NCBI GenBank assembly: GCA_900498215.1
Contig: LR026962.1
Coordinates: 2,841,348 to 2,900,872 of the forward strand
Direction: 5' to 3'
Source: an uncultured Paludibacter sp.
GTDB taxonomy: Bacteria > Bacteroidota > Bacteroidia > Bacteroidales > Paludibacteraceae
Length of the DNA stretch: 59,525 nucleotides
Translations under genes and position numbers: made by a program
Notes under the pieces: model-generated
Databases searched by the model: none
The model's input: only the letters and a program-made list of their open reading frames with translations
Told to the model about the DNA's origin: nothing
In this document: positions 17,083 to 30,844 of the stretch, piece by piece
How the letters are laid out: each line of letters opens with the position of its first letter
Position numbering within the stretch: position 1 is the first letter of the stretch

Positions 17083-20000
17083 TTATTTCGGATATCCATA
17101 AACTTCAACCGAAGTAATTCCCACGTTATCTTTTCCGTAAGATGAGTTTACTTTAATTCTTATATAATTGGCTTCAGTTTCGGTGAAATTTACCGTTTGA
17201 GGTTCAATTGTATCTTGTAAATTAGCTGAAGTAACAGTTGTAAAACCGGAGCCGTCGGCTGATGTTTGAATTGTAATATCTTTTGGTCCTATTCCGGTTA
17301 CAGATTTTATAATTAATTTGTTGCAACCGTAATTTCCCATTAATTTAACAGTAATACTTTCGGGAACTGTTGATGTGGGAGATATAATTGACTGGTAATA
17401 AGTTGAATCTTCACCGTCAATCATAGCGAATGGAAAATGTTCCGGCAATTGATCATCGGCGACAATATGTTTTCCTTTTGAAATATTGTGATATCCGGCG
17501 GGGAAAGTTGCATTTTGTGAAATAATTGTGTTATTAGTTACTTCAAAATACAAACATTCATTGGCTTTTATTGTAACATCCATTGGCGCGTAACTTCCAT
17601 TATTCCATATATTTATTGTTGATGAGACATCAGATGTATTTTCGTTTTTCACATACATAGTGTATGGCGAATCTCCCTGAACAGCTTTTAAAGGCAATGT
17701 TGCTCCCAGAACAAAACAGTATAATTCTTGAGGCGATGAAGTATTTGTCATACAATTGAATGTGGCTGTTCCAATATTATTTGTAATAGTTGTAACTCTA
17801 TCGAAAACGGGAGCGCCTTCCGCAAAACTTAATGTTACATCTGAACTTGCCGAAGAACGGAAATTAGATATTAACAAATATCGTTTCCCATTTGGATCTT
17901 CGGCTGCAACCGCTTTCCATCCGTCTGCAACGGTAGGGTATTGTGCTTTTGCAGCGAGAGTTTGAGTGGCCTCACTGTTTATTCCCGGGTAAGCAATCAT
18001 TGAACGAGAGCTGAAAACATTCCCGGAAGTGAATGATTTTGAAGTTGTAGAATATGAACCGTATAATTTAGAAACATATACCGATGTAATCAATTCTTTT
18101 TCTCCAAACGCAATTCCGCTTCCTCCATTATAAACCAGTCCATATTGATTGTCAACATTTACCCAGTTCCCTGTTAAATTAGTTAAAGTAGTTCCGTCAG
18201 AAGTAACAAAACCCCCATCGTAATAAAGTGTCCGTTTCAATTTAGTCAAAATATCGGTGGTAATTCCCATAAGTAAACCGCCTTCTTTTGTAACGCTTCC
18301 CGATGTGTTTCCTACGTGTTCGTCTATATAAATCACAGCATTTCCCGGAGTAGAGTAGTAAGAAATATATTGTGTAGCGCTGCTATCGTCTATGTTTAAT
18401 TTTCCGGTGGTAGAAAAACTTTTTGGGGACATTGTGTAAGTACTTGCTACAAACGATGCGTTGCGAGATTTTCCCGAAATATCGGTGTAACCTGTAAAAT
18501 TACCTGTGTTAGAAACCTTTAAAGGGAAAATAATGTTGCTGGAATTTGCATTGTTAGGCGATGTCATTCCCATATACGATTTATAGCTTGAACCGTCCGC
18601 AGATTGGAACCACGAAAAAGTTACGTATCTGTCATCGTTATTACTGCGAATAATTCCACTGTAAGGAAGATATTTTGTCAATTCATGCTGTTTACTGTAA
18701 TCGCTCCATTTAGTTGCTGTCATATCAGAGGTAGAAAAGTAGTCGTGATAGAGATGTGCAAATACTAATCTGCGTCCCGTAACAGCCATACGACGTTCGG
18801 CTACATCAGGATTTAATAAAAATGCGCCATCGGAAGTGGTAGATTGACGGTATTTTGCATATTGAAGTACTAAACTTTCCATCATCAAAGCATCCGGATC
18901 TCGATAAATACAAGATAATGCGGAATATGTTCCCAATTCATCATAAATATACATTGACCAATCGTTGCCATTTGGCATCGCTAAAATTCCATCTGCCATA
19001 ATAAATTCCTTCAACATTGAGTCCCAAACATTTTTTACGTTGTGCTGTAATGTTTGAGGAATATTAAATGCCGGATTTGTCTGATTTTGAACAGCTTTGT
19101 AAGCCAATAAAGACTCTGACATCTCCTGAATAGGAATATTTAAATAAGAAGTATGGAAGAAATTGTGATTTTCCAATGCGTAATCGGGAAATAAATTTGC
19201 ACCAATATGCCAATCACGGACGTATTTTCCATCTTCAATATTGTAGTTGTATAAATCGGAAGCTACACTATATGTATTGGCAGCGTATTGTTTACAACGA
19301 TATGTCCATGCTTCAGCATTTTTTTCTTCGGGAAACATAGCCGATGCAATTGCTAAAATATTGGTATCCCAACCATTTTCTTCCGCTTTTGTATCGGAGT
19401 TTACTTGTGTGGGAATAGTTGTGGAAAGTTTATAATTAGCTTCCGCTGTTACCATTGCCTTTACTGCAGCTTTGTCGGCATCAGTTAAATCGTTCCACAT
19501 CATCCAAGCGGCATAAGCTGTTGAAGTACACCACATAGACGATTCCCAAACCAGCCCCCAATATTTATTATCGGTGCAATATTGGGCTTTGTTTGCCGTA
19601 TGTGTGTTGTATGAATATCTGATGGCATTCAGTGCATGTTGTTTGATGGTTTCAAAAGTTAAACCATTCGGCAAATTTTGATCTTGGCATTTTTTATAAA
19701 TAAATGCGTATATCAATGCGTAATCAGCATTAGTTCGAGCTCCATGTTCTACACTTTGTCCGTTTCCAAAATACCCCCCGGCTTTGAATTGTCCTTCGGC
19801 GTATGGAAGATGTTTTGTAAGCATTTCTCGAATGGTTGATTTTATTGTTGATTCCGGAATCTGATCGTTTGATATAATTACGTCCATTCCGGTTATTTCC
19901 CCTATTTCATACAATTCCCAATTATCGATAAATCCTGTTGTACCTGTTTTTTGATAATTATTGAAAAAAGTAAGTGCATCGGTTACAACTGCTCCGGTTT

Positions 20001-22098
20001 TGAATGTGAAATCTACCGCCTGCCATTCTTCTTGTGTGTCAATTACTTGGTTGATGTCTTGACTTGAACCATCGTAGTTTGCGATACCGAGTTGGAATGT
20101 TCCTCCAACGGTTTTCACCATTGCTCGCATTCTATATTTGGTGTATGGTTTCAGAGTTAAATTTTGATCAATTGAACCTGAAGTGGTTATTTCCCCTGAG
20201 TATTTTCCGCAGAAGGGAGTTATTGAATCCAATGATGTTGTTCCCCATCCGGAATAATTATTTAAACTGTTAAAAAACGGATCTTTTATCAGATTTGTTT
20301 TATCGGAATATAAAGGAGTAAAACAAGCTGCGTCACCCGTCATTGCTGTTACGGCAATACTTTTTGTAAGATCACCGCTACTGATAATAATTGATTTGTT
20401 TGAAATACTTGTTGTTTGATCAAAAGTAGCAGTAATCGTTATTCCGCACTGTGCTTCAGTGGCAGAAACAGATTCAGGACTGACAGTAATGCCCGTAGGA
20501 GCTGTTATTTCAACAGCATCCGTCAATTCGTTTCCACTTATTACAAATGTACGGGTTTTATTAATGTCGTCAAATGCCAGAGCGGTTTCTGAAATGCTGA
20601 GCGATTTAACGGTTTCTTTTTCTAAAGATAAATCGGCGATAGCACATAGTGCAGCAGTGTTTGCTCCAATAGTAAAATAATACACTCCTGTGGTAGGAGC
20701 ATTGAATGTGATGGTACCTTCTGTAAATAATTGTTTGGTTGAAGAACATACAAAATCTTTTGTAATAATTGGAGATGTTCCGTTTATATCAGAAGAAATA
20801 GTGGTAGATAATGTAGGAACAGTAGCATTATTTGCCCAAGAATATTTGAACTTCAAATTGTATGTTTGACATGCTTCAACTGCAAGAGGATAACTGAAAA
20901 TGGAAGAAGTTGTTGTTGCGCCTGCGCCATCCCAACGAACATATAAATCTCTTCCAGTCCAGCTGCTTCCGTTAAAAGTCCAACCTGAAGTAACGTCGTT
21001 AAAACGACAAGCAGTACCTGAAGAATTTGCCAAACTCCAACAAGAGGTAGTATTGGAGCAGTTCCATCCCCATAAATTAGGATACGAACGATTTCCGGTT
21101 ACTCCATTTCCATCCCAATAATCGAAAGTAGTAGGAGTAAAATCTACAGTGTAATTTTTAGTGGTTGTTCCATCGCTTGAAGTGCAAACCATTGTTACCG
21201 AAGGATTTGCTGTGCTTATATTAGAAGGATTGTTCGATATGGTTGCTGCTGATTGAGATGCTGTAGCGGTAACGGTAGTTGAGGCGTATGAAGGAGCAAC
21301 AAGTGCGTTATAATTTGTAATGGACGAGCTAAAATCTTTATCTAATACTCCTTTGGATAAAGTGATGGACGCAAGTGTAGCATCTTTTGCCGGTGATGTA
21401 ATATAGCTGAAACTTCCACTGTTTACGGTGGCGTTTTTGGCGTTTGCAGTTAGGTCGTTTGCATTTTGACTGTCAAAATTATAATATGCTACTAATCCCG
21501 ATTCATTACCGGTAAGAGTTAGGTTTTTTGTTGCTTCAATTTCTGCAGGAGTTCTTGCGATATTCCAAAAACGCACTTCGTCAAATAATCCGGCGACATT
21601 TCTTCCTGTGGTTGCAGGATCGCTCCCAATGTATGAGGTATTACTAAAAAAACTTGTATTCCACGAAGTTGAGGTATTTAATGCCTTGTAATATGTCCCG
21701 TTTAATTCTACAATAACCGAATCTGAACGGACAATAAAAGAAATATGATTCCAAACTCCAATTGAAGGAAATGCCGTAGTTAAAGATGAAATAAAACGTG
21801 CATTGGCATTAAAATCGCTTCTGAGATATCCTGTTGAAACGTTATCAAACTGAACGCTGTTTATATTTCCCGACCTATCCACAAAAAAACCACCGTAGGA
21901 AACCCAAGCTGTTGGTTTTACCCACAGTTCCACTGTAAAAGGATATTGATTGATAAATGAACTTAATGCAGGAATAGCTAAACTACTGGTAGAAGCGGCT
22001 CCGGTTCCGCCGGGTAAACTTAAGGCATATCCGCTTTGAGACCAGATTGTTTGAGAAAATAAGGTTGTAAATACAACCAAAAGTAAGATTTTTTTCAT
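17083..22098 (-). CDS. Large multidomain putative polysaccharide lyase/hydrolase, unclassified
   Basis: This 1671-residue exported protein has a signal peptide (to about SQTIWSQ) followed by, approximately: a LamG module (27-205), a cadherin-like Ig domain (236-318), a Cys- and Trp-rich jelly roll (322-490), an Ig module (492-585) and a carbohydrate-binding-like module (590-735). An all-helical region (736-1110) with many Trp, Tyr, His and Asn residues comes next (NADYALIYAFIYKKCQ, GLVWESSMWCTSTAYAAW, ALENHNFFHTSYLN). A large beta-sandwich (1115-1510) and a C-terminal F5/8C module (1530-1671) close it. A helical toroid followed by a beta super-sandwich is the architecture of PL8-type lyases, but I recognise no family signature. 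It has no T9SS sorting domain, unlike its neighbours. Confidence 0.6.
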   Translation of the reverse strand: MKKILLLVVFTTLFSQTIWSQSGYALSLPGGTGAASTSSLAIPALSSFINQYPFTVELWVKPTAWVSYGGFFVDRSGNINSVQFDNVSTGYLRSDFNANARFISSLTTAFPSIGVWNHISFIVRSDSVIVELNGTYYKALNTSTSWNTSFFSNTSYIGSDPATTGRNVAGLFDEVRFWNIARTPAEIEATKNLTLTGNESGLVAYYNFDSQNANDLTANAKNATVNSGSFSYITSPAKDATLASITLSKGVLDKDFSSSITNYNALVAPSYASTTVTATASQSAATISNNPSNISTANPSVTMVCTSSDGTTTKNYTVDFTPTTFDYWDGNGVTGNRSYPNLWGWNCSNTTSCWSLANSSGTACRFNDVTSGWTFNGSSWTGRDLYVRWDGAGATTTSSIFSYPLAVEACQTYNLKFKYSWANNATVPTLSTTISSDINGTSPIITKDFVCSSTKQLFTEGTITFNAPTTGVYYFTIGANTAALCAIADLSLEKETVKSLSISETALAFDDINKTRTFVISGNELTDAVEITAPTGITVSPESVSATEAQCGITITATFDQTTSISNKSIIISSGDLTKSIAVTAMTGDAACFTPLYSDKTNLIKDPFFNSLNNYSGWGTTSLDSITPFCGKYSGEITTSGSIDQNLTLKPYTKYRMRAMVKTVGGTFQLGIANYDGSSQDINQVIDTQEEWQAVDFTFKTGAVVTDALTFFNNYQKTGTTGFIDNWELYEIGEITGMDVIISNDQIPESTIKSTIREMLTKHLPYAEGQFKAGGYFGNGQSVEHGARTNADYALIYAFIYKKCQDQNLPNGLTFETIKQHALNAIRYSYNTHTANKAQYCTDNKYWGLVWESSMWCTSTAYAAWMMWNDLTDADKAAVKAMVTAEANYKLSTTIPTQVNSDTKAEENGWDTNILAIASAMFPEEKNAEAWTYRCKQYAANTYSVASDLYNYNIEDGKYVRDWHIGANLFPDYALENHNFFHTSYLNIPIQEMSESLLAYKAVQNQTNPAFNIPQTLQHNVKNVWDSMLKEFIMADGILAMPNGNDWSMYIYDELGTYSALSCIYRDPDALMMESLVLQYAKYRQSTTSDGAFLLNPDVAERRMAVTGRRLVFAHLYHDYFSTSDMTATKWSDYSKQHELTKYLPYSGIIRSNNDDRYVTFSWFQSADGSSYKSYMGMTSPNNANSSNIIFPLKVSNTGNFTGYTDISGKSRNASFVASTYTMSPKSFSTTGKLNIDDSSATQYISYYSTPGNAVIYIDEHVGNTSGSVTKEGGLLMGITTDILTKLKRTLYYDGGFVTSDGTTLTNLTGNWVNVDNQYGLVYNGGSGIAFGEKELITSVYVSKLYGSYSTTSKSFTSGNVFSSRSMIAYPGINSEATQTLAAKAQYPTVADGWKAVAAEDPNGKRYLLISNFRSSASSDVTLSFAEGAPVFDRVTTITNNIGTATFNCMTNTSSPQELYCFVLGATLPLKAVQGDSPYTMYVKNENTSDVSSTINIWNNGSYAPMDVTIKANECLYFEVTNNTIISQNATFPAGYHNISKGKHIVADDQLPEHFPFAMIDGEDSTYYQSIISPTSTVPESITVKLMGNYGCNKLIIKSVTGIGPKDITIQTSADGSGFTTVTSANLQDTIEPQTVNFTETEANYIRIKVNSSYGKDNVGITSVEVYGYPK

Positions 22099-25490: not shown

Positions 25491-28037
25491 TTATTTAATT
25501 ATTTTCTGAGTGGAAGATTTTCTGTCAATATTTATTTTAATCAAATAAACACCTTTGTTTAAATCTTTATTAATAATAAGCTTATGTTCTCCTGCATTTA
25601 GTTTTTCAGATTTTTCAGCTAATTTAACTCCATTCACAGTATATACAGCCATATTAACGAGCGCTGTTTCGTCTATATTGAATTCAGAAACAATATTGTT
25701 TCCTTGTATATATGTTTTAAGATTATTTGCTAAAAGTTGATTTACTCGTGTATCTGATATTACAGCTTTCATTGGAATTGTTACGCTCGTACCTCCTATG
25801 GCTACACGTTGCATTCCCGGAGCAGGAGAAGCCGGATTAGTAGAAGAAATAACCAAATTTGCTTCAGCAGATGCAGTTCCTTTAAATGTAACCATAACAG
25901 TTCCTCCGGTATTTGGCAATGTGCTGACGTCAGTTAAGAAGTTAGTGGGGTCGCTACTTGTGACATTAAATCCATTTGTAAATAATGTAGCAATAACAGG
26001 TACTTCTATTTGTTGATCGGATGCAGTAAATAAAACACTATCTTTTGGAGTATTATTACCTTCGGCTCTTAGTGTTGGTATTTCGTAAATTTGCCAGTTA
26101 TCAATATATCCAATATATCCAGTACTGTTGCCGCATCCATTAAAGAAACACAACCCATCACCAGCTCCTGCTCCAGTTGTAAACGTTTGATCAAATTCTT
26201 GCCATGTTCCGTTTGTAAGAGGAACTTCAAAATTTAAATCTCCATCCAATCCTACATTACTAACTCCAATATTCATAGTTCCAATATCGGTTCTTACCAT
26301 AGCATAAATTCGATAATTTGTATTTGGTTTCCATTTAATCGAAGCGTCTATGGAACCACTGTTAGGATAACATACTTCAGTGCCATTAATAAAACCAGAG
26401 CTGTTGCAATATGCATTAGCATCTGTTGCAATACTTTTATTTCCCCATCCGGCGTAAGTTGAAAGACTATTCATTAAAGGATCACTAATAAGATTTGTAT
26501 ATGTTCCTTCGGGATATAATCGCGTATAACAACCTTCAACAGCATTATATGCGTTAACAGCTATTGATGTAGATGTTGAACCGCTTGTAATATCTATTAT
26601 TCCGTCAGTAATAGGAACAGAGTTATCATATTCAGCTGTTACTTCTACTCCAGCATAGGCTTCAGCGGGTGAAATAGTTGTTATATCCAATGTAATTCCT
26701 GTCGGTGGTGTTAAGACAATGTCATCGACAAGATTTGTTCCCTTAACAGTAAATATTCTTACAGGATTAAGAGCATCAAAAACTAAGGATGTAGGATCTA
26801 CTGCAAGTGTAGGAGCATCAAATAATTCATACATTTCCCAGTTATCAATGTAACATTCCGTTGCTGTTTGTGTTTCACAACTATTTAAATACATATTTAT
26901 ACTTCCTAATGAAGCTTGTGTTGTAAATGCAAAATCCAATGCAATCCATTCACCTGCGGCAGTAGAAAAAGGTTCTGTAATATTTGAAGAAGTAGCACCG
27001 CTTATTCCAATTTTTCCTTCTCCGGTTCCATTTGTGCTAACCATTGCTTTTACCCTGTAATTTGTGTTCGGTTTTAATTTGCCTGTTAAACCATAGTCTA
27101 ACGAACCTCCACACGTTCCTGAAATTTTAATGCTGTTAGTACCACAATATACATAATCCGTAACAACATCGCGTGAACCCCATCCTGCATAGGTAGAAAG
27201 ACTGGTCATTAATGGGTCTTGAATAATGTTAGGTCTGTCAGTGTAAAGAGGAGTGAAGCATGCTGCATCAGCCGCAGAAGCATTAACTGTAATGTTTTGA
27301 GTCAAATCACCGCTTGCTATTAAGATTGTGCCATTAGTGATATTAGTTGCTTTGTCGAAAGTAGCAGTAATTTTTACTCCGGCGGCAGCTTCTGCAGGTG
27401 TTAAACTCGTTTTATCTAAAGTTATTCCTGCAGGAGGTGTTAAAAGCAGATTACTTGTGAGATTAACAGCCTTTACTTTGAATGTTTTGGTAACATTTAC
27501 AACATCAAAAGATAAATTTATAGTGCTGACCGTCATATAAGGTGTGCTACCTAAAGAGATAAGACGAAAATTATCAACTGCGACCCAATTACTAGATTTA
27601 ATTACAGCAAAACCGAGGTTTAACGTGTTATCTGTAATATCAACTATCACACTGTAATCATTTGTTTCAAAAACTTCAGTAGAATCATTATTTGCAAAAA
27701 TATATGTGCCACCGTAGTTTTGATTTGTAAAAGCAGCCGCTTTTAATTCATAATATCCGTTAGGAATACTTGAGATGGTTTGAGAAATTTTAAGGTTCGT
27801 AAGATTTCCTGAACTTTGCCATTTTTCAGCATACCAAGTACCTTCTTTTAGTGAGAAGGAAGAATTGTTTTGAGTTTGCATATTGCCAACATTCGTCCAT
27901 CCGTCAATAGTCGTACTTACTGATGTTGCCGATTCAAATCCGGGATTTGTGAGATAAGTGTTTGTTACGTCCGTTTGCGCAAAAGCGTTTGTTATAACTA
28001 AAACCGCTAAAGCTAGAAAAGTAGTTAATTTTCTCAT
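25491..28037 (-). CDS. Secreted multi-module binding protein with T9SS domain
   Basis: This 848-residue secreted protein has a signal peptide and no visible catalytic domain. In order it carries: a type A binding-like module (NPGFESATS to VAVDNFRL), an Ig module (TPPAGITLDKTSLTPAEA), a type B module (CFTPLYTD, STYAGWG, IDNWEMYEL), a second Ig module, a second type B module (CYTRLYPEG to IDNWQIYEI), a C-terminal Ig-like domain (NTGGTVMVTFKG) and a sorting domain (NKGVYLIKINI). The pairs resemble galactose-binding-like beta-sandwich modules, but glycan binding is inferred. Type B modules recur in the 1671-residue protein and type A in the next upstream gene. It probably captures glycans at the cell surface for the neighbouring enzymes. 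Confidence 0.7.
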   Translation of the reverse strand: MRKLTTFLALAVLVITNAFAQTDVTNTYLTNPGFESATSVSTTIDGWTNVGNMQTQNNSSFSLKEGTWYAEKWQSSGNLTNLKISQTISSIPNGYYELKAAAFTNQNYGGTYIFANNDSTEVFETNDYSVIVDITDNTLNLGFAVIKSSNWVAVDNFRLISLGSTPYMTVSTINLSFDVVNVTKTFKVKAVNLTSNLLLTPPAGITLDKTSLTPAEAAAGVKITATFDKATNITNGTILIASGDLTQNITVNASAADAACFTPLYTDRPNIIQDPLMTSLSTYAGWGSRDVVTDYVYCGTNSIKISGTCGGSLDYGLTGKLKPNTNYRVKAMVSTNGTGEGKIGISGATSSNITEPFSTAAGEWIALDFAFTTQASLGSINMYLNSCETQTATECYIDNWEMYELFDAPTLAVDPTSLVFDALNPVRIFTVKGTNLVDDIVLTPPTGITLDITTISPAEAYAGVEVTAEYDNSVPITDGIIDITSGSTSTSIAVNAYNAVEGCYTRLYPEGTYTNLISDPLMNSLSTYAGWGNKSIATDANAYCNSSGFINGTEVCYPNSGSIDASIKWKPNTNYRIYAMVRTDIGTMNIGVSNVGLDGDLNFEVPLTNGTWQEFDQTFTTGAGAGDGLCFFNGCGNSTGYIGYIDNWQIYEIPTLRAEGNNTPKDSVLFTASDQQIEVPVIATLFTNGFNVTSSDPTNFLTDVSTLPNTGGTVMVTFKGTASAEANLVISSTNPASPAPGMQRVAIGGTSVTIPMKAVISDTRVNQLLANNLKTYIQGNNIVSEFNIDETALVNMAVYTVNGVKLAEKSEKLNAGEHKLIINKDLNKGVYLIKINIDRKSSTQKIIK

Positions 28038-28128: not shown

Positions 28129-30747
28129 TTATTTTATGACTTTTTTGGTAATTGTTTGACCGTTAGTTGTCATTTTTAGTAAGTAAATTCCTTTTGATAA
28201 TGTAACTTTTAAATCTTCCTGGAATGATCCGGTAGAAAATGATTTATTGGTTCTTGATATCAAAACCCCATTAGTGCTGTAAATGTTAAAGTCAACATCC
28301 GAAGGGGTTGTCAAATTGAATTTAATTCTTATTCCTTCATTTGTTGCAAATACATTCAATGATTCAGTTTCTAAAACGTTTGTGCCTGTAGCTACCAACG
28401 TAGCTTTCATAGGAATGGTAATACTTGTACCACCCACAACACGTTGCATTGGGGCCGGCGTTGAAGGACTAACTGATGAAATAGTTAAATTACCGGTAGC
28501 AGAAGTGTTTCCTGAAAAAGTGATTACAATATTTCCACCGGTATTCGGTAAAGTTGTATTATCAAGAGTAAATAATGCATTATCAGAATTGATGGTTATT
28601 CCGTTATCAAATAACAAGGTTGACACAGGAATAGTAATTTGTTGATTTTTAGTTGTAAATAAAATACTGTCGTTCGTTGCATTGTTTACGGTAGCCACCA
28701 AGGAAGGTAAAGCTGTCAATCTGAAATTATCTGCAGCTACCCAGTTTCCTGTGGTGTAAGAATTGAACCCGAGTTTTAATGTGCCATCAGTTACTTTTAC
28801 TTCTAAAGAATAATCATTTGGTGAGGTTACTTCAATAGAATCTTTATTTCCTACAATGTAGGCACCTCCAGGGTTGCTTCCGTCACTTTGTTGTATGGTT
28901 TGAGCTGACGCAGTGAGTGAGTATAATCCATTAGGAAGTCCGGAAATAATTTGTGTAACTCCACAATTTGCAAGAGGACCCGGAGCGCTTGTCCATTTTT
29001 CTATATAAGTATTTCCTGATTTATATGGATTAAAGGAAGTATTGGTTTGTGTTGCCATACCATTATTAGTCCAACTCGTGAAGCCTGATTCAAAATTTGG
29101 ATTAAGAATAGCGGTTGTGTAATCCGCTTTGGATGCATTTACTGTAATAGTTTTACTCAGCGAACCACTTTGTATAATAATTGTTTCTCCTGTAATATTC
29201 ACGGATTTATCGTAAGTAGCGGTAATTGTCGTACCTGCATCTGCTTCTGCAATAGTTATTGTTGATTTATCAAGACTTATACCGGTTGGAACACTCAATG
29301 TAGCATCAGTTGTCCATCCCTTTCCTGAAACAACGAAAGCCTTGCTGCTTGTAATAGCATCAAAATATAGCGATGATTGATCGGTATGTATATATGCGGT
29401 ACCCAAATATGTTAATCGGAAATTATCCACAGCTATATAGTTTCCACCGGCAACAATATTATAACCAATTTCTAAAGTGCCATCGGTTACTTCAACAATT
29501 ACAGAATAGTCACCTGGATTATATACGGGATCAGACATTTCGCTGTTTGCATAAATGTAAGCACCTCCAGTAGTTGTAGGATTATTCAAAGCATTAGCTG
29601 TGAGTTCATAGAATCCATTTGGCAAATTAGATAATGATTGATAGAGTTTTGCAACCCAAGAACCGGAACTTTGCCATTTCTCTGCATAATAAGTTCCGTC
29701 CTTATTTGGTAATGCAGTATTACTTTGAGTCCAAAAACCGTCAGGATTATTCCAACCTGTGAAATTTCCGGTCTCAAAACTAGGATTTATAATAGCAGTA
29801 GTTGCATTAGTTTCGTTTGTGTTATCCGCATTTACTGTAATACTCTGCGATACTGCACCAGTAGAAGAAATTGTAATGCTTTCACCTAAAATAGCAACAG
29901 ATTCATCATAAGTTGCTGTAATAGTGGTGCCGGCTTCTGCTTGTGCAATTGTCAAACTTGCAGGATTTAATGTTATCCCGGTCGGGGCGACCATTGTTAC
30001 ATCCGACGTAAGGTTGGATGCAGAAACATTGAATGTTTTTATGGAGTTAAACTTGTCAAAAGTAAAACTAGTTTTGTCAACTCCTATTAATGGAGTGGTT
30101 ACCTCAATCAGTTTTACATTGTCAATAAAAAGTATAGGACTATCACTACTTCCAACGTTATTTATCTTTTTGTATCCCATACGTATGGTAACGCTTTTGT
30201 CCGTAGAAATAGTAAAAGTCAGACTGTTATTATTCCAAGTGTTTTTTACAGATGGAAAAGTAGCATAGGTAGTAACGCCGTCTATTTCATATCCGCAAAC
30301 GCTGGATTGATTTCCTGCATTGTATGCATTTGTCATTGTAAAATAGGAATCCCATGTTAGTTTATATGTGCCTGCAGGCAAAGCTGAAGAAGTAGTCTGC
30401 GAAACACAAACAGAATCACCAGGATACCAATGTAATTTTACACCAAGAATTGCCGTATTTTCTGTTGTAACAGAACTCCCGTTTGCAGGAACTGTTCCTA
30501 AACCCGCTGTCGTTGCTCCATATAATACAGTCGCAAGTTTATAATAAGATACAGAGCCTGGAGATTGGTGTTCTATCCAGCCGGTAACGTCATAAATGGT
30601 GTTGTCTGTAGCATCACCTGTAACGTTTGTCTCAAAATCAGCATTCGTAAGATATGTGCTTGTTACATCGTTGTCAGCAAATACTGACAAATTCATAAAA
30701 AATAGAGCTGCAAATAAGCTCAAAAATTTTAGTAAGTAGTTTTTCAT
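28129..30747 (-). CDS. Secreted protein with three binding-like modules and T9SS domain
   Basis: This 872-residue secreted protein starts at MKNYLLKFLSLFAALFF and has no catalytic domain. Three type A modules begin LTNADFETN, INPSFETGN and LNPNFESGF and each ends in a (V/A)DNxxL motif. They alternate with Ig-like modules carrying GITLNPASLTIAQAEAG-type sequences. A C-terminal Ig domain (NTGGNIVITFSG) and a sorting domain (SKGIYLLKMTTNG) follow. Its Ig domain and sorting region closely match those of the 848-residue protein, so the two genes are paralogous by module shuffling. The ATG at 30816 is in frame but would add 23 residues ahead of the signal peptide. It is the first gene of the minus-strand series leading to GH27. 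Confidence 0.7.
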   Translation of the reverse strand: MKNYLLKFLSLFAALFFMNLSVFADNDVTSTYLTNADFETNVTGDATDNTIYDVTGWIEHQSPGSVSYYKLATVLYGATTAGLGTVPANGSSVTTENTAILGVKLHWYPGDSVCVSQTTSSALPAGTYKLTWDSYFTMTNAYNAGNQSSVCGYEIDGVTTYATFPSVKNTWNNNSLTFTISTDKSVTIRMGYKKINNVGSSDSPILFIDNVKLIEVTTPLIGVDKTSFTFDKFNSIKTFNVSASNLTSDVTMVAPTGITLNPASLTIAQAEAGTTITATYDESVAILGESITISSTGAVSQSITVNADNTNETNATTAIINPSFETGNFTGWNNPDGFWTQSNTALPNKDGTYYAEKWQSSGSWVAKLYQSLSNLPNGFYELTANALNNPTTTGGAYIYANSEMSDPVYNPGDYSVIVEVTDGTLEIGYNIVAGGNYIAVDNFRLTYLGTAYIHTDQSSLYFDAITSSKAFVVSGKGWTTDATLSVPTGISLDKSTITIAEADAGTTITATYDKSVNITGETIIIQSGSLSKTITVNASKADYTTAILNPNFESGFTSWTNNGMATQTNTSFNPYKSGNTYIEKWTSAPGPLANCGVTQIISGLPNGLYSLTASAQTIQQSDGSNPGGAYIVGNKDSIEVTSPNDYSLEVKVTDGTLKLGFNSYTTGNWVAADNFRLTALPSLVATVNNATNDSILFTTKNQQITIPVSTLLFDNGITINSDNALFTLDNTTLPNTGGNIVITFSGNTSATGNLTISSVSPSTPAPMQRVVGGTSITIPMKATLVATGTNVLETESLNVFATNEGIRIKFNLTTPSDVDFNIYSTNGVLISRTNKSFSTGSFQEDLKVTLSKGIYLLKMTTNGQTITKKVIK

Positions 30748-30779
30748 AATGTGTTTTTTAATAAATGATATTAGATAAT

Positions 30780-30787
30780 CAAAATTA
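30780..30787 (-). promoter_or_regulatory. Putative -7 element of the module-repeat / GH27 series
   Basis: TAATTTTG on the minus strand matches TAnnTTTG, 32 bases before the ATG at 30747. A second candidate, TATCTTTG, lies at 30819-30826. Neither has a good -33 box. Confidence 0.4.
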
Positions 30788-30844
30788 AACGTGTACTTTT
30801 TACACTTAAAAAGCACCTCAAAGATAAAACTAACAGTTTATATA

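Follow-up and report, generated by a model that had tools for sequence, protein, structure and literature searches.

CAZy counts 44 polysaccharide lyase (PL) families (PMC12088678). The base His is provided by the beta domain in PL12, PL15, PL17, PL21 and PL35 (PMC12088678), as well as in PL40 (PMC12915356), and His233 and Tyr242 have been published for 1RWA (PMC12088678 Table 4). We analysed a stretch of 59,525 nucleotides from an uncultured Paludibacter sp. (assembly GCA_900498215.1, contig LR026962.1, positions 2,841,348 to 2,900,872; hereafter the window), which encodes a large exported protein, P0001. Residues 736-1524 of P0001, hereafter the core, are likely to form the catalytic module in a family of polysaccharide lyases that is uncatalogued and has a distant relationship to PL8. 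The best reading is that the core works like a PL8 lyase by its fold and is not a PL8 member by its sequence; that it is an active lyase is probable from its predicted fold and the invariance of its residues.

An AlphaFold2 model of residues 736-1524, built from an alignment of 48 homologues, has a pLDDT of 93.6 and a pTM of 0.91, with helices up to about residue 1137 and an all-beta domain after it. In a Foldseek search against the PDB, ranks 1-7 are occupied by PL8 hyaluronate/chondroitin lyases (E 2e-13 to 1e-12), the leading PL8 matches including 8fyg, 8fnx, 2wda and 1rw9, with 1n7q at rank 14; rank 9 is a xanthan lyase (1x1h). The PL8 matches have template modelling (TM) scores of 0.44-0.50 at about 10% identity. 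They are followed by PL39, PL17, dermatan sulfate epimerase, PL12, PL35, PL15 and PL33, all listed PDB matches lying at 8-12% identity and TM scores of about 0.36-0.50. Matches in the viral library were mostly to ODV-E66, which we take to be a PL23 chondroitin lyase. The helical toroid followed by a large beta super-sandwich, placed at about residues 736-1510 in a preliminary description of the sequence, is confirmed computationally, by the model and by Foldseek. That description had proposed a lyase or a hydrolase; the lyase is favoured, since every one of the best fold neighbours is a polysaccharide lyase, apart from a uronyl epimerase, and since the conserved residues form an Asn-His-Tyr set, not a carboxylate pair alone.

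Conservation was counted over 112 distinct homologues, including one from a haloarchaeon, some of them only 23-29% identical. N977, H978 and Y985 are unchanged in all 112 and H982 in 111, in agreement with the conservation anticipated for the ENHNFFHTSY cluster. Moreover, all 111 homologues that cover these positions have R788, W847, W856, E886, E906, E907, N908, W910 and D1046. The other cluster thought to be conserved, WESSMWC, is so in part: W856 is invariant and W851 nearly invariant, but C857 is not conserved. The conserved residues expected for an active-site cleft are therefore all present at the level of sequence, and their position in the cleft is a prediction. No His is conserved above 90% from residue 1142 onward in the homologue alignment, and for this reason an arrangement of the PL8 type, with all catalytic residues in the toroid, appears to be a better analogy for the core than that of the lyases with a beta-domain His. 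A profile-profile comparison between the 112 core homologues and 15 PL8 sequences (L110-L124) gave a weak, collinear match (probability 6.8%, E 0.005), in which D972, H978 and Y985 fall on PL8 D210, H216 and Y225 (each present in 15/15 of the PL8 set) in a low-confidence extension of the alignment. H216 and Y225 were equated with His233 and Tyr242 of 1RWA through their common spacing of nine. Smaller profiles (9 core and 7 PL8 sequences) gave no match.

The core is absent from the sequence libraries searched (Pfam, NCBIfam and PDB). Pfam yields nothing for it at E up to 10, the Lyase_8, Lyase_8_N and Lyase_8_C models included; it has no NCBIfam match, and no match to PDB sequences either as a single sequence or as a 9-row profile. 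A 49-row core profile gave chance matches only against the PDB, and hmmsearch of the PDB with the core profiles (E up to 10) returned no PL12, PL15, PL17, PL21, PL33, PL35, PL39 or other lyase. Over the whole of P0001, Pfam recognises only LamG, a weak cadherin-like stretch and F5/8C. The absence of a recognisable family signature in the core, noted from the sequence at the outset, therefore holds, with no strong match to a characterised family in these three libraries, and no description of the family was found in the literature.

If the core is a lyase of this type, a uronic acid at subsite +1 would be bound in the cleft between the toroid and the super-sandwich, where the charge of its carboxylate would be offset by N908 (and N977). 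The C5 proton would be taken by H978 and/or Y985, Y985 would protonate the C4-O glycosidic bond, and beta-elimination would release a 4,5-unsaturated uronide. The LamG, CBM16/99-like (carbohydrate-binding module) and F5/8C modules may keep the enzyme on its substrate. With four genes of the GH88/GH105 type (GH, glycoside hydrolase), none of them within the window, the genome can process unsaturated uronides.

The family is common, uncatalogued and larger than first supposed. A genome scan gave 562 candidate stretches, 497 of which encode a relative. Their taxonomic make-up, read from 80 kept stretches, is mostly Paraprevotella, Prevotella-type and rumen Bacteroidales, and includes close, Paludibacter-like relatives (72-79%) and, at 44%, a Clostridia metagenome-assembled genome (MAG). 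In the taxonomic family holding Paraprevotella, matches occur in 120 of the 399 species genomes, usually one per genome and in a few cases partial or toroid-only, and one genus of four genomes has the core in all four. An order-wide sample gave a match in 8 of 393 genomes and an even phylum-wide sample in only 4 of 396, the latter indicating that the family is concentrated, not universal. The notion of a local oddity is not supported, the family being large and widely distributed. A plasmid of the haloarchaeon Halocatena marina carries a copy that is 27.5% identical. Around this lyase-like gene (L025 1-17331) lie GH78, several sulfatases, a xylanase and an L-rhamnose mutarotase, a cluster resembling an ulvan-type degradation locus, here in an archaeon.

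Toroid-only relatives of about 400 residues (L108 721-2853, L022 982-2496, L109 1375-2637) match the core toroid at 99.8% hhalign probability. Those of L021/L108 and L022 have no meaningful match in Pfam, NCBIfam or the PDB, and the group possibly represents another uncatalogued lyase family. One is fused to an apparent acetylesterase, as read by eye, the Pfam scan covering the toroid part only. In homologues of 1500-1900 residues, a search for a second catalytic domain found binding modules only, plus one domain resembling phosphatidylinositol-specific phospholipase C (PI-PLC) with a dockerin. The latter belongs to a Prevotella-type homologue (L075 9257-14131), in which the fusion to both a dockerin and a PI-PLC X-like domain is odd for a secreted carbohydrate enzyme.

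Several observations weigh against the core being a PL8-like lyase. TM scores of 0.44-0.50 indicate a shared superfamily fold, which includes an epimerase (6hzn), the core profile matches PL8 only weakly, and not at all when smaller profiles are compared, and the PL8 Arg located about 54 residues past the Tyr has no clear counterpart. In addition, the GH88/GH105-type genes lie elsewhere in the genome, not near P0001, and the Prevotella-type homologues adjoin housekeeping genes, not a polysaccharide utilization locus, which is unusual for a lyase. The most serious rival, although we hold it to be unlikely, is that the core falls into an existing CAZy family for which there is neither a solved structure nor a Pfam or NCBIfam model (PL37, PL29, PL30 or an unclassified PL0 entry), and which the libraries searched would therefore miss. 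PL37 and PL29 are present in Bacteroides, and PL37 shares with the core its occurrence in Bacteroidota and acts on uronic-acid glycans. As reported, the PL37-type enzyme P29_PDnc loses its activity upon mutation of Asp, Arg and Lys while its Tyr306 is dispensable (PMC8511951), whereas the core has an invariant His/Tyr pair; PL29 and PL37 are described from Bacteroides glycosaminoglycan (GAG) loci (PMC9067506), whereas the core family is centred on Prevotella-type genomes. The lack of any match in Pfam, NCBIfam or the PDB, even with profiles, also argues against such a membership.

Sharing the fold and the C5-proton chemistry without chain cleavage, the core might be a uronyl C5-epimerase or an oligosaccharide dehydratase, as human dermatan sulfate epimerase (6hzn) is among the fold matches (TM 0.47, rmsd 7.7) and a carbohydrate dehydratase annotated under PL37 exists (PMC8511951). 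We consider this improbable: only lyases rank above 6hzn, and the binding modules and secretion fit polymer degradation. Moreover, dermatan sulfate epimerase uses a beta-domain His, and none is conserved in the core. Toroids are also known in GH families, and E886, E906, E907 and D1046 are invariant carboxylates; a glycoside hydrolase on an alpha/alpha toroid is still less probable, since none appears in the best 45 PDB fold matches and since the conserved set and the domain order are those of toroid lyases. Least probable of all is a catalytically dead, binding-only relative of the toroid lyases. The many accessory modules and an activity that is predicted only would suit it, but the candidate catalytic residues are invariant over all the homologues, even the most divergent.

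As for the substrate, it is possible, albeit doubtful, that P0001 acts on a glycan of plant or microbial origin that is unsulfated and contains 4-substituted glucuronic acid (GlcA), for example the rhamnose (Rha) linkage Rha-alpha-1,4-GlcA of arabinogalactan-protein type glycans. A PF00884 search found no S1 sulfatase in the whole genome, which makes an unsulfated GlcA-type glycan more likely, and a sulfated GAG or ulvan unlikely as the main target of this organism. Sulfatases do flank the haloarchaeal relative, and an apparent sulfatase, read by eye, adjoins L155. The GH27 neighbour had been regarded as informative on the substrate; this was rejected, as GH27 does not adjoin the P0001-type gene in the four close relatives. 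Genes for GH3, F5/8C, SusC/SusD, GH16, GH81, GH128-type (Glyco_hydro_cc) and CBM6 proteins lie at 35547-58749 of the window, consistent with beta-1,3-glucan use. This locus was also rejected as a guide, being mostly on the opposite strand, and beta-1,3-glucan contains no uronic acid. Neighbours in Prevotella are mostly housekeeping genes. In one clade of Prevotella-type genomes the homologue lies beside GH43, DUF6055 and GH97 (plus GH95 in one locus), and another homologue locus has GH2, GH141 and GH31; these are suggestive of complex plant glycans, not conclusive. A conserved cluster of a two-domain GH43, a HAD phosphatase, a short lyase-like protein, DUF6055 and GH97 (L139-L145), seen in a single Bacteroidales clade, is a possible guide to the substrate. 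The case is evenly balanced for a broader proposal, namely that the core is the founding member of a new lyase family in the PL8-like clan, usually single-copy and secreted, in about 30% of the species of one large gut/rumen Bacteroidales family, acting on a uronic-acid linkage that no catalogued lyase handles.

The features of P0001 and its partner are listed in the table below. The reading frame of P0001 exists with the extent first reported, but its strand had to be corrected to minus (22098 to 17083), the plus-strand translation being riddled with stops. The protein starts with the signal-peptide-like stretch MKKILLLVVFTTLFSQTIWSQ and has no type IX secretion system (T9SS) sorting tail. 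Among the binding modules thought to frame the core, LamG and F5/8C were recovered and the jelly roll is plausible, whereas the presumed Ig-type pair is a single Ig-like domain. Residues 600-735 match the porphyran-binding module 8xmz by sequence (E 5e-11) and by fold (TMt 0.85). We take 8xmz to be CBM99; the likeness to it and to CBM16 is in both sequence and fold, at an identity of 25%. The unit formed by the Ig-like and CBM99/CBM16-like modules recurs in two large proteins with T9SS tails, with two copies in that encoded at 25491-28037 and at least one in that encoded at 28129-30816. Its presence in P0001 and both neighbours suggests that the same surface is addressed, and the two neighbours probably bind glycans at the surface as parts of one system with P0001.

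Features of P0001 and its downstream partner in the window (positions counted from the first letter of the window)
Feature	Position	Strand	Evidence
Whole gene P0001, exported multimodular protein, 1671 residues	17083..22098	-	ORF (open reading frame) translation
Signal-peptide-like N-terminus, residues 1-20	22039..22098	-	Inferred by eye from sequence
LamG-like (Laminin_G_3) module, residues 37-187	21538..21990	-	Pfam PF13385, E 6e-18
Cadherin-like beta-sandwich module, residues 243-320	21139..21372	-	PF12733, E 0.007, under Pfam cut-off
Putative jelly-roll binding module, residues 325-495	20614..21126	-	Kept in relatives; model confident in part only
Ig-like module, residues 499-595	20314..20604	-	Repeat comparison and model
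CBM99/CBM16-like module, residues 600-735	19894..20301	-	PDB 8xmz by sequence and fold
Predicted catalytic core, helical toroid, residues 736-1140	18679..19893	-	AlphaFold pLDDT 93.6; Foldseek PL8
WESSMWC motif, residues 851-857, W856 invariant	19528..19548	-	Homologue alignment
N908 in E-E-N-x-W, candidate carboxylate-neutralising Asn (role inferred)	19375..19377	-	111/111 homologues
ENHNFFHTSY motif, residues 976-985; N977, H978, Y985 candidate catalytic residues	19144..19173	-	112/112 homologues; H978/Y985 on PL8 His/Tyr
Predicted catalytic core, residues 1141-1524: beta super-sandwich plus a small C-terminal beta unit	17527..18678	-	AlphaFold model
F5/8C-type (galactose-binding-like) module, residues 1540-1671	17086..17481	-	Pfam PF22633 at 1559-1648, E 3e-6
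Protein of the SUMF1 fold carrying a T9SS sorting tail, gene 23 bp downstream of P0001	16010..17059	-	Domain match; partner in 5/5 close loci

The GH27, hybrid two-component system regulator (HTCS) and SUMF1-fold neighbours initially described were each recovered, all of them on the minus strand. The conserved partner of P0001 is the SUMF1-fold neighbour, not GH27: the two genes stay together in each of the five close loci (the window, L026, L027, L029 and L036), and an HTCS lies near the P0001-type gene in three of them. The likeness of this neighbour to the formylglycine-generating enzyme (FGE, SUMF1) is in its fold (FGE-sulfatase, E 2e-52), and it differs by its T9SS tail and by the absence of an FGE-type Cys pair and of an S1 sulfatase client in the genome. 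No Cys is present in the stretch 'RGGYRSLGSTDLHLTHRES' (RGG...RES) of the protein and its homologues (five homologues), presumably the place where FGE has its Cys pair. For lack of both the Cys pair and an S1 sulfatase, the protein does not serve to activate sulfatases; our guess is that, once secreted, it acts as an accessory or binding protein.

A secreted family present in 120 of 399 species of one gut/rumen Bacteroidales family yet missing from Pfam and NCBIfam represents a blind spot in predicting the polysaccharides that gut and rumen Bacteroidales degrade. Should it prove active, the family would enlarge the PL8-like clan and hint at a glycan common to rumen Prevotella, Paludibacter, a Clostridia MAG and a salt-loving archaeon. 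With its invariant residues and a core that is compact and folds confidently, the family lends itself to direct testing.

Among the described systems, PL23 (baculovirus ODV-E66) and PL33 resemble the core as fold matches, but at about 10% identity and with no sequence relationship detected. The PL12, PL15, PL17, PL21, PL35, PL39 and PL40 lyases have in common with it the two-domain fold and, putatively, the Asn/His/Tyr chemistry, whereas the beta-domain His of some of them (His401 in PL35, His485 in PL40) has no conserved equivalent. The core differs from PL8 by a His-Tyr spacing of 7 instead of 9, an Asn-His spacing of 70 instead of 50, an identity of about 10% without any Lyase_8 hidden Markov model match, and the lack of a clear counterpart to the PL8 Arg/Glu. 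It nevertheless shares with PL8 the toroid and antiparallel beta super-sandwich that give the top Foldseek ranks, the location of all candidate catalytic residues within the toroid, and an identical D-x5-H spacing with a Tyr after it, the PL8 pattern being D210-x5-H216-x8-Y225.
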